Shown here piece by piece: positions 60,591-64,000 of a stretch of 64,000 bases of DNA; position 1 is the first letter of the stretch; each line of letters opens with the position of its first letter. Below the pieces are notes generated by a model. That model was not told the origin of the DNA and did no database searches. It saw only the letters and a list, made by a program, of their open reading frames with translations. The stretch covers positions 1 through 64,000 of the forward strand of contig NZ_VJYB01000002.1 of NCBI RefSeq assembly GCF_030400225.1, written 5' to 3'. Origin of the DNA: Lactobacillus sp. UCMA15818 (lineage in GTDB: Bacteria; Bacillota; Bacilli; Lactobacillales; Lactobacillaceae). The translations under genes and the position numbers were made by a program.

Positions 60591-61247
60591 ATGGTAACAT
60601 CAAAAATTCCTCACGCGACAGCCAAAAGACTGCCAATTTATTATCGTTACTTGCACTTCTTATCGGATGCAGGCAAACAAAGAATTTCATCAACCGAGCT
60701 CGCAGATGCTGTTAAGGTTGATTCCGCAACAATTAGAAGAGACTTCTCATACTTTGGTGCTCTAGGAAAACGAGGATATGGGTATGATGTGGACAGCTTG
60801 CTTGCTTTCTTCAAGAAGACCTTAAAGCAAGACCAGTTAACAAATGTAGCACTGATTGGAGTTGGTAATCTCGGGCATGCGCTCTTGAATTATAATTTTC
60901 ATCAGAGTAATAATGTGCGTATTAGTGCTGCTTTTGATATTAATCAGGATATCACTGGAACAATTCAAAGTAGTGTCCCGGTTTATGATATGGCTGATAT
61001 GAAGGAGCAGCTAACAGTTCAGCAAATTGAGATTGTAATTTTAACCGTTCCATCCAGTGTCGCTCAAAAGGTTACAAAAGAGCTTGTTGATGTTGGGATT
61101 AAAGGAATACTTAATTTTACGCCGCTTAGAATTACAGTTCCTAGTACTGTTAGAGTTCAGAACGTTGATCTAACAAATGAATTACAAACCCTAATTTATT
61201 TCCTGAATAAATTTGGTGATGAAGCTGAAACACCATCAGAAGATTAA
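60591..61247 (+). CDS. rex: Redox-sensing transcriptional repressor Rex
   Basis: 218 residues. Rex binds DNA when NADH is low and controls fermentation genes. An N-terminal winged helix (about 1-80, with [13 protein letters not shown] recognition) is followed by a Rossmann domain with GVGNLG at 90-95, and a C-terminal swapped helix (about 195-210). SD AAGGGAG 7 nt before the ATG. Probable Rex half-sites overlap its own promoter region. Confidence 0.95.
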
Positions 61248-61266: not shown

Positions 61267-61300
61267 AAAGTTCTTACTGCGGTAAGGCTTTTTATTTTAG
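61267..61300 (+). terminator. Terminator after rex
   Basis: TCTTAC pairs with GTAAGG around TGCG, followed by CTTTTTATTTTA. Stem short; it lies between convergent genes. Confidence 0.55.
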
Positions 61301-61924
61301 TTGAAGTGCAACAACCAGAAGATTCATAAGTATATGAGTAATGATTGGTGCTTTAATATTGTGAGCCTTGTAGTATACAAAACTCAAAACTAGTCCTAAA
61401 CAAGCATAGGTTAAGTAGTGCCCGTCAGCATGAGCAATGCTGAAAAGAATACTTGAGAAGAGTGCAGCTCCCATTGGATTAATAAAGGTTGAGAGGTTAC
61501 CAAAGAACACTTTGCGAAAAATAAATTCTTCCATTACCGGTGCAGCAACTATTACGTATATTAAATAATAAGGATAGTGAGCGATAATTGTCATTATTTG
61601 GCTTGTATTTTCGGAGACCGCTGGTTGATGTAGAAAATAAATTTCAGCAAGCATTGTTACTTTTTGGACAAGAAAAGCTAGAATTGTTCCCAAAATACCT
61701 AATAATAGTACTGAAGTCAGGGAGCTTTTTTTTGAATCAATATGGTTCGCAAACGGAAATTTCTGGTTAAGGTAGAACATACAGAATATTCCTGCAGTTC
61801 CCACAATACTAGTTGTGATGAACAGCAATAGATTACTTTTGCTTACTGTAAAAAAAAGATTCGGAAATAGCATGACAACAAGATATGTTACGAGTAGTGC
61901 GAAAGAATTTTTTCTGATATTCAT
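61292..61924 (-). CDS. CPBP-family intramembrane glutamic endopeptidase
   Basis: 210 residues with about six membrane helices. CPBP (CAAX/Abi) proteases; motif EEFIFR at 132-137 gives the catalytic Glu pair, with His in AHADGH (165-169) and His197 in THILMNL. Substrates are unknown; in lactobacilli some give bacteriocin immunity, but no bacteriocin gene is nearby. The ATG at 61924 follows GGAG by 6 nt; the ATG at 61936 lacks a site. Its promoter overlaps a CIRCE element shared with divergent groES. Confidence 0.85.
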   Translation of the reverse strand: MNIRKNSFALLVTYLVVMLFPNLFFTVSKSNLLLFITTSIVGTAGIFCMFYLNQKFPFANHIDSKKSSLTSVLLLGILGTILAFLVQKVTMLAEIYFLHQPAVSENTSQIMTIIAHYPYYLIYVIVAAPVMEEFIFRKVFFGNLSTFINPMGAALFSSILFSIAHADGHYLTYACLGLVLSFVYYKAHNIKAPIITHILMNLLVVALQLK

Positions 61925-61955
61925 AGTTAGCTCCATTCACTTTAATAATAGGTCT

Positions 61956-61964
61956 AGTATAGCA
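61956..61964 (-). promoter_or_regulatory. Extended -10 promoter of the CPBP gene
   Basis: On the minus strand TGcTATACT (TATACT at 61961-61956). The matching -35 region (about 61979-61984) falls inside CIRCE 1. Confidence 0.55.
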
Positions 61965-61973
61965 TATATTAAT

Positions 61974-62000
61974 TTAGCACTCTTGCAGTTAGAGTGATAA
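61974..62000. promoter_or_regulatory. CIRCE element 1 (HrcA operator)
   Basis: TTAGCACTC-N9-GAGTGATAA, one mismatch from the consensus TTAGCACTC-N9-GAGTGCTAA. It sits 6 nt upstream of the groES -35 box and overlaps the -35 region of the divergent CPBP gene. Confidence 0.88.
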
Positions 62001-62005
62001 AAAAC

Positions 62006-62034
62006 TTGCATTTTTAGCATGAATTGATTATAGT
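62006..62034 (+). promoter_or_regulatory. Promoter of groES-groEL
   Basis: TTGCAT (62006-62011), a 17-nt spacer and TATAGT (62029-62034), flanked by two CIRCE elements. Confidence 0.78.
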
Positions 62035-62045
62035 AATAGTTGTGA

Positions 62046-62072
62046 TTAGCACTTGAACTAATAAAGTGCTAA
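62046..62072. promoter_or_regulatory. CIRCE element 2 (HrcA operator)
   Basis: TTAGCACTT-N9-AAGTGCTAA, a perfect inverted repeat differing from consensus at one position in each arm. It lies just past the transcription start of groES. Confidence 0.9.
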
Positions 62073-62100: not shown

Positions 62101-62385
62101 GTGCTTAAACCTTTAGGAGATCGTGTTATTTTGGAAGTTCAAAAAGATGAGGAACAAACTGTTGGCGGTATAGTGATTGCTAGCAATGCTCAAGAAAAGC
62201 CACAAACAGGAAAAGTGGCAGCTGTTGGTGCAGGCCGAGTTTTAGATAACGGCGAAAAGGTTGCTTTATCAGTCAAAGTCGGTGAAACAGTTTTGTTTGA
62301 TAAATATGCTGGCACAGAGGTCAAATACGAAGAAAAAGGGTATTTGGTTGTTCATGAAAAAGATATTGTTGCAATTGTAGACTAA
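62101..62385 (+). CDS. groES: Co-chaperonin GroES
   Basis: 94 residues; the heptameric lid of Gro[22 protein letters not shown] and the mobile loop [16 protein letters not shown] are typical, ending [11 protein letters not shown]. The GTG at 62101 lies 7 nt after GGAGGG; the upstream in-frame ATG is on the ribosome site. First gene of groESL, under two CIRCE elements. Confidence 0.96.

Positions 62386-62408: not shown

Positions 62409-64000
<1,592 letters not shown>

Follow-up and report, generated by a model that had tools for sequence, protein, structure and literature searches.

The HrcA/CIRCE class I regulon of Gram-positive bacteria comprises groESL and hrcA-grpE-dnaK-dnaJ. The dnaK gene of L. 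lactis has two CIRCE elements, and the other chaperone operons of lactic acid bacteria then sequenced had a single one, according to the accessible text of a 2006 study (PMC1676014). Two CIRCE elements are also given for the hrcA operon of L. plantarum (PMC3842655, accessible text). In streptococci, L. reuteri, L. fermentum and P. pentosaceus, groESL is under the dual control of HrcA and CtsR, and the HrcA regulon of the Lactobacillaceae has been called expanded (PMC3616900, accessible text); this expanded regulon may already include CPBP. Beside groESL of L. plantarum WCFS1 lies lp_0726, which encodes a CAAX-family protease and has been predicted as a member of the HrcA regulon (PMC3842655). 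A CPBP gene as a predicted HrcA target in L. plantarum is thus already in print. New are the operator common to groESL and CPBP and the exchange between HrcA and CtsR that are proposed here; by title, none among the matches listed dealt with a CIRCE common to groESL and a CPBP gene or with a CtsR box at lp_0726.

The stretch of DNA analysed, called the window in the following, has a length of 64,000 nucleotides and comes from the genus Liquorilactobacillus. The genes of interest follow each other in the order rex (plus strand), CPBP (minus strand), groES (plus strand) and groEL (plus strand). The features of the locus are:

60591-61247, plus strand: rex-type redox repressor gene, convergent with the CPBP gene
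61292-61924, minus strand: gene for a CPBP (Rce1-like, PF02517) membrane protease, with the ATG at 61924 and GGAG at 61931-61934
61956-61964, minus strand: extended -10 element TGCTATACT of the predicted CPBP promoter, with the hexamer at 61956-61961
61979-61984, minus strand: position of the CPBP -35 at a spacing of 17, AAGAGT (non-consensus), entirely within CIRCE 1
61974-62000, no strand assigned: CIRCE 1, putative HrcA operator, TTAGCACTC-N9-GAGTGATAA, 1 mismatch in 18
62006-62011, plus strand: groESL -35, TTGCAT, 5 bp from CIRCE 1
62029-62034, plus strand: groESL -10, TATAGT, spacer of 17
62046-62072, no strand assigned: CIRCE 2, proximal groESL operator, 2 mismatches, just 3' of the inferred groESL start
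62101-62385, plus strand: groES, with a GTG start
62421-64000, plus strand: groEL, continuing past the end of the window

The name rex for the first gene is our assumption from its domain pair, and the last gene was taken to be groEL by sequence recognition. The product of the CPBP gene scored 67.9 bits against the PF02517 profile, for which the curated cut-off is 22.4, and therefore belongs to this family. It contains the EExxxR-type stretch EEFIFR, and its proteolytic activity is predicted. Another in-frame ATG is present further upstream at 61936. The space between the CPBP start and the groES start is 176 bp long and houses CIRCE 1, the groESL promoter and CIRCE 2. HrcA is encoded in the genome (PF01628, E 8.4e-52; domain match C1:253195-253848) and CtsR is encoded as well. 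With a pair of CIRCE elements at its promoter and hrcA in the genome, groESL is a member of the HrcA/CIRCE regulon. The locus resembles the class I regulon in its CIRCE sequence, in the presence of hrcA and in the CIRCE just 3' of the groESL promoter, but it differs in having an additional CIRCE, located upstream of the groESL -35 and lying over a divergent promoter as well. With the dual HrcA/CtsR systems of groESL it shares the second stress-repressor operator, whereas both operators in the window are predicted to be for HrcA.

The initial annotation had placed CIRCE 1 at 61974-62000, and the element was found there with a single mismatch. When the whole 2.58-Mb genome was searched with the CIRCE pattern at up to 3 mismatches, three sites were obtained: CIRCE 1, CIRCE 2 and a third one at C1:254172, which is 324 bp away from the match to the hrcA domain. 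The reversed pattern, used as a control on the same genome and at the same threshold, gave 1 site. A chance occurrence of CIRCE 1 was rejected, since the genome has only 3 sites at this threshold. Relative to the predicted start sites, CIRCE 1 spans about -25 to -51 on the CPBP side and about -41 to -67 on the groESL side.

An extended -10 element had been claimed for the CPBP gene on the minus strand, and TGCTATACT was indeed read at 61956-61964, from which we infer a start site near 61949. Taken alone, such a motif is not unusual: the 64-kb window contains TGNTATAMT 10 times where 6.8 would be expected, and a count of 10 was reached in 13 of 100 shuffles. The element, although commonplace by itself, is significant because it recurs. 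In 14 of 14 Liquorilactobacillus genomes, the stretch from CIRCE 1 to the CPBP start contains either TGYTATACT or TGGTATAAT. Mononucleotide shuffling of these stretches, repeated 2,000 times, gave a mean of 0.10 in 14 and a maximum of 3; the 14 species are akin and do not count as 14 independent events.

CIRCE 1 overlaps this predicted promoter, its end being 9 bp away from the extended -10 element and 12 bp away from the hexamer. The claim that the -35 region falls inside CIRCE 1 was borne out by position, but there is no consensus -35 hexamer at this place. None of the hexamers inside CIRCE 1 at spacings of 15 to 19 (GAGTGC, AGAGTG, AAGAGT, CAAGAG and GCAAGA) is TTGACA-like, and a scan for the sigma-70 consensus did not list the extended -10 promoter of CPBP. 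A CIRCE is in a classic repressing position when it lies over the -35 region of a conserved extended -10 promoter, and HrcA should hinder the polymerase wherever its operator overlaps a promoter. Extended -10 promoters can function without -35 contacts, and for this reason an operator at this site may repress weakly. A weaker promoter on the minus strand, TTAATA-16-TATTAT at 61972-61945, was rejected by eye; such a -10 is absent in several relatives, whereas the extended -10 is present in 14/14.

We compared 103 CPBP-groES intergenic regions and, together with these, 184 regions upstream of groES from 40 genera. The genome G094 (L171) was left out of the 184 as its groES was not located. One scan of contigs covered 8 loci, 4 of them from Liquorilactobacillus. 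The arrangement of the window proved to be conserved within its genus when this was checked. CIRCE 1 and the extended -10 were both present in the 14 Liquorilactobacillus genomes examined, with CIRCE 1 at 4-6 bp (sd 0.38) from the groESL -35 and at 7-19 bp (sd 4.6) from the CPBP -10 in each of the 14. Since CIRCE 1 is at most 19 bp away from the CPBP -10 hexamer, the -35 position is overlapped wholly or partly in all of them. The CtsR box has the consensus RGTCAAA-N3-RGTCAAA. No such box (up to 1 mismatch) was found in the CPBP-groES space of the 14 genomes, although ctsR is in the genome, and CtsR control of CPBP in the window was rejected for lack of a box.

On the sequence evidence, we consider it rather probable that HrcA represses both groESL and the CPBP gene. 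HrcA would have two operators at groESL: CIRCE 1, at a fixed place immediately before the -35, and its partner CIRCE 2, immediately after the start site. In Liquorilactobacillus, the divergent CPBP promoter would be so near that one HrcA dimer, predicted to bind at CIRCE 1, would cover its -35 region. HrcA would then hold down both groESL and CPBP in unstressed cells. When misfolded proteins titrate GroEL, HrcA would be released and both groESL and CPBP would rise. If true, a membrane CPBP protease would be linked to the cytosolic chaperonin response, and the locus would offer a clean test case of one repressor site common to two divergent promoters.

The genus g23 has CIRCE 1 in 24 of its 26 species and in 21 of the 22 in which CPBP is linked to groES. 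When both CIRCE 1 and the linked CPBP gene were present, CIRCE 1 was 5-7 bp from the groESL -35 in 21/21 species. Its gap to the CPBP -10 ranged from 7 to 93 bp (19 species with an extended -10 found); among the 21 species it was up to 22 bp in 5, 24-31 bp in 11 and larger in 5. In G205, G059 and G312 the extended -10 of CPBP was 80-93 bp off, and the best CPBP promoter of G238 and G269 was a plain TTGAAT-17-TATAAT, 41 bp off. CIRCE 1 still had 1 mismatch in these five species. G205 also has a TATTAT without a good -35, 29 bp from CIRCE 1. Over Liquorilactobacillus and g23, the distance from CIRCE 1 to the CPBP start varied from 44 to 157 bp, whereas that to groES was steady at 96-108 bp. The CPBP start of G305 was extrapolated, as its match begins at residue 40.

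Four of the 26 g23 species lack CPBP beside groES. In G254, G296 and G163, rex is directly followed by groES, and in G186 the genome gave no CPBP match and the contig edge lies 387 bp upstream of groES. Three of the four (G254, G296 and G186) keep CIRCE 1 at 7 bp from the groESL -35, and G163 has lost CIRCE 1 too. In G309 the CPBP gene is present and CIRCE 1 is lost, the sole remaining CIRCE being CIRCE 2. In-frame stops were seen in the CPBP match of L203 (G301) and L205 (G312) and in the groES match of L196/L197 (G309).

Since CIRCE 1 is locked to the groESL -35 and is kept without CPBP or with a distant CPBP promoter, we conclude that it belongs to groESL first. Its retention in three of the four species without CPBP beside groES and in the five with a CPBP promoter 41-93 bp off also means that CPBP control cannot be argued from its conservation. 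The usual comparative argument, in which an operator is conserved on account of the gene in question, is not strictly defining and does not hold for CPBP here. By its sequence context, CIRCE 1 would be mainly an additional operator of groESL, and in Liquorilactobacillus it extends over the CPBP -35 region too. The initial annotation, which had HrcA repressing both groESL and CPBP, stands as far as the position of CIRCE 1 over the CPBP -35 region in 14/14 Liquorilactobacillus genomes is concerned, but the conservation of CIRCE 1 follows the groESL promoter.

The same observations could mean that CIRCE 1 serves groESL only and that the CPBP promoter is merely adjacent, its extended -10 firing regardless of HrcA. 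The lock to the groESL -35 and not to the CPBP -10, the three g23 species keeping CIRCE 1 and the 1-mismatch elements of the five species with distant CPBP promoters all agree with this explanation. However, the operator overlaps the space of RNA polymerase at the CPBP promoter in 14/14 Liquorilactobacillus genomes (gap 7-19), and with such an overlap indifference to HrcA would be unusual, so we regard this explanation as unlikely, though a serious one. We favour the repression of both genes by HrcA, although some observations count against it. Of 21 g23 species, only 5 have the CPBP -10 no further than 22 bp from CIRCE 1, and four of the 14 Liquorilactobacillus genomes have a degenerate CIRCE 1, with 4 mismatches in G030 and 3 each in G169, G225 and G271.

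A different operator was found in the genus of L. plantarum (g38). There, a CtsR-type box was located 5 bp from the -10 of the CPBP strand in 14/14 genomes examined (loci L076-L082, L084, L088, L089, L091, L102, L103 and L107). The best box was perfect in 4/14 and had one mismatch in 10/14. The box nearest to the CPBP gene was 16-17 bp from the groESL -35 in 14/14, and with these two distances it looks tied to CPBP. The CPBP start was 48-133 bp from the box in 13 genomes and 1051 bp in G243. In the latter (L088), the CPBP-groES distance is 1175 bp; the box and the groESL side are preserved, and the CPBP side carries roughly 1 kb of additional DNA.

Among these genomes, G258 was taken as L. plantarum or a very near relative, because it exactly matches the hrc2 (hrcA) primer given in the accessible text of PMC1676014. 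At up to 3 mismatches this primer was found in 5 of 14 genomes, and the exact match was seen in G258 only. With the groESL2 primer, also from the accessible text of PMC1676014, nothing matched at up to 3 substitutions, the best loci having at least 4; when insertions were allowed, G258, G243 and G287 matched with one extra base. The box of G258 has 1 mismatch, and the single CIRCE of this genome lies 78 bp away from the -10 of CPBP.

The orthology of lp_0726 to the CPBP gene of the window was deduced from position and similarity. Both have the family and the divergent layout in common, whereas lp_0726 has its CIRCE 78 bp from the -10 and a CtsR-type box beside the -10, and responds to the loss of ctsR and not of hrcA. 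The expression changes reported for lp_0726 (PMC3842655, accessible text), all without significance marks, were 1.90 at 28 C and 2.26 at 40 C when ctsR was mutated. With hrcA mutated they were -1.07 and -1.22, and the double mutant gave 1.56 and 2.44. For groES, likewise without significance marks, the ctsR mutant gave -1.21 and -1.55 at 28 and 40 C, against 2.13 and 1.14 for the hrcA mutant; groEL, like groES, fell slightly in the ctsR mutant (PMC3842655). The rise of lp_0726 in the ctsR and double mutants is stated in the authors' discussion, and lp_0726 is missing from the CtsR list in the accessible text (PMC3842655). In another study GroES and GroEL were lower in the unstressed ctsR mutant, and neither '0726' nor 'CAAX' occurs in its main text (PMC3472708). 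In PMC6459948, as far as its accessible text goes, the protease was absent from the class I genes that the treatment upregulated.

A CtsR-type box beside the CPBP -10 would account for the response of lp_0726 to the loss of ctsR. It suggests why this gene, a predicted HrcA target, rose in ctsR mutants instead (PMC3842655, accessible text). The box near the -10 fits the response of lp_0726 and the distant CIRCE does not, and the same logic of position would predict HrcA control in Liquorilactobacillus. By this analogy, L. plantarum lends the position argument indirect support. Weighing against HrcA control of the protease gene, lp_0726, with its different layout, neither rose on the loss of hrcA nor appeared among the regulon members induced at 40 C (PMC3842655, accessible text), and the observation of PMC6459948 points the same way.

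It could also be that promoter competition dominates, and that heat opens groESL and shuts out the CPBP promoter, leaving the CPBP transcript flat or falling. About 22 bp separate one -35 position from the other (62006 and 61984), and at such a distance divergent polymerase footprints of the usual size would overlap. In the L. plantarum wild type at 40 C, groES and groEL were induced and lp_0726 was not among the induced regulon members in the accessible text (PMC3842655). However, lp_0726 went up when CtsR was lost while groES and groEL dipped slightly (PMC3842655), indicating that the loss of a repressor can open the CPBP promoter, although the slight dip of groESL is itself compatible with competition. 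We judge a dominant role of competition improbable. That CIRCE 1 was selected chiefly for CPBP control has the overlap with the CPBP -35 region in 14/14 Liquorilactobacillus genomes and the fixed box of g38 in its favour, but it is largely refuted by the three g23 species that keep CIRCE 1 without CPBP beside groES and by the varying distance to the CPBP start against the steady one to groES, and is very improbable.

The position of CIRCE 1 was also followed across the genera. A slot 80-135 bp upstream of groES contained a CIRCE (up to 3 mismatches) in 50 of the 184 regions, not counting G309, whose CIRCE is CIRCE 2, G036, whose only CIRCE is far upstream, and G030 with its 4 mismatches. Eleven of the 50 were at 3 mismatches (3 in g1, 2 in g12, 2 in g16, 3 in g22 and 1 in g26). 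A CtsR box (up to 1 mismatch) was present in the slot in 21 of the 184 regions: 14/14 in g38, 2/3 in g6, 2/2 in g20, 2/2 in g25 and 1/1 in g29. At the thresholds used, CIRCE and CtsR box occurred together in 0 of the 184 regions, which is weak evidence because related species were counted repeatedly.

Perfect CtsR boxes were found 6-8 bp from a TTGC-type groESL -35 in L159 and L160 (g25), L167 and L170 (g6), L232 and L233 (g20) and L221 (g29). No CPBP-like stretch turned up when 30 CPBP queries were run against the 69 unlinked regions, although many of these reach only about 600 bp beyond groES on its upstream side. Near the groESL -35 and with no CPBP-like stretch in the fetched regions, these seven boxes look tied to groESL. 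As a tentative reading, which we think has less than an even chance, the slot could be one for exchangeable operators, occupied by CIRCE in Liquorilactobacillus and g23 or by a CtsR box in the genus of L. plantarum. The repressor would have been swapped while the protease was still heat-shock-repressed, and membership in the regulon would have outlasted the regulator.

At 61997 (position 24 of CIRCE 1), the arm facing groES has an A for the consensus C. The same A was found in 14/14 Liquorilactobacillus genomes, in 20 of the 21 CPBP-linked g23 species with CIRCE 1 and also in 2 of 3 g23 species without CPBP beside groES. This nearly fixed exchange may lower or tune the affinity for HrcA. Second CIRCE elements in the same general slot were also seen in other genera, in L074, L085 and L087 (g26), L112 (g18) and L225 and L242 (g37). 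The A is absent from those of g26 and g18, and the second CIRCE elements of g26, g18 and g37 are possibly independent gains.
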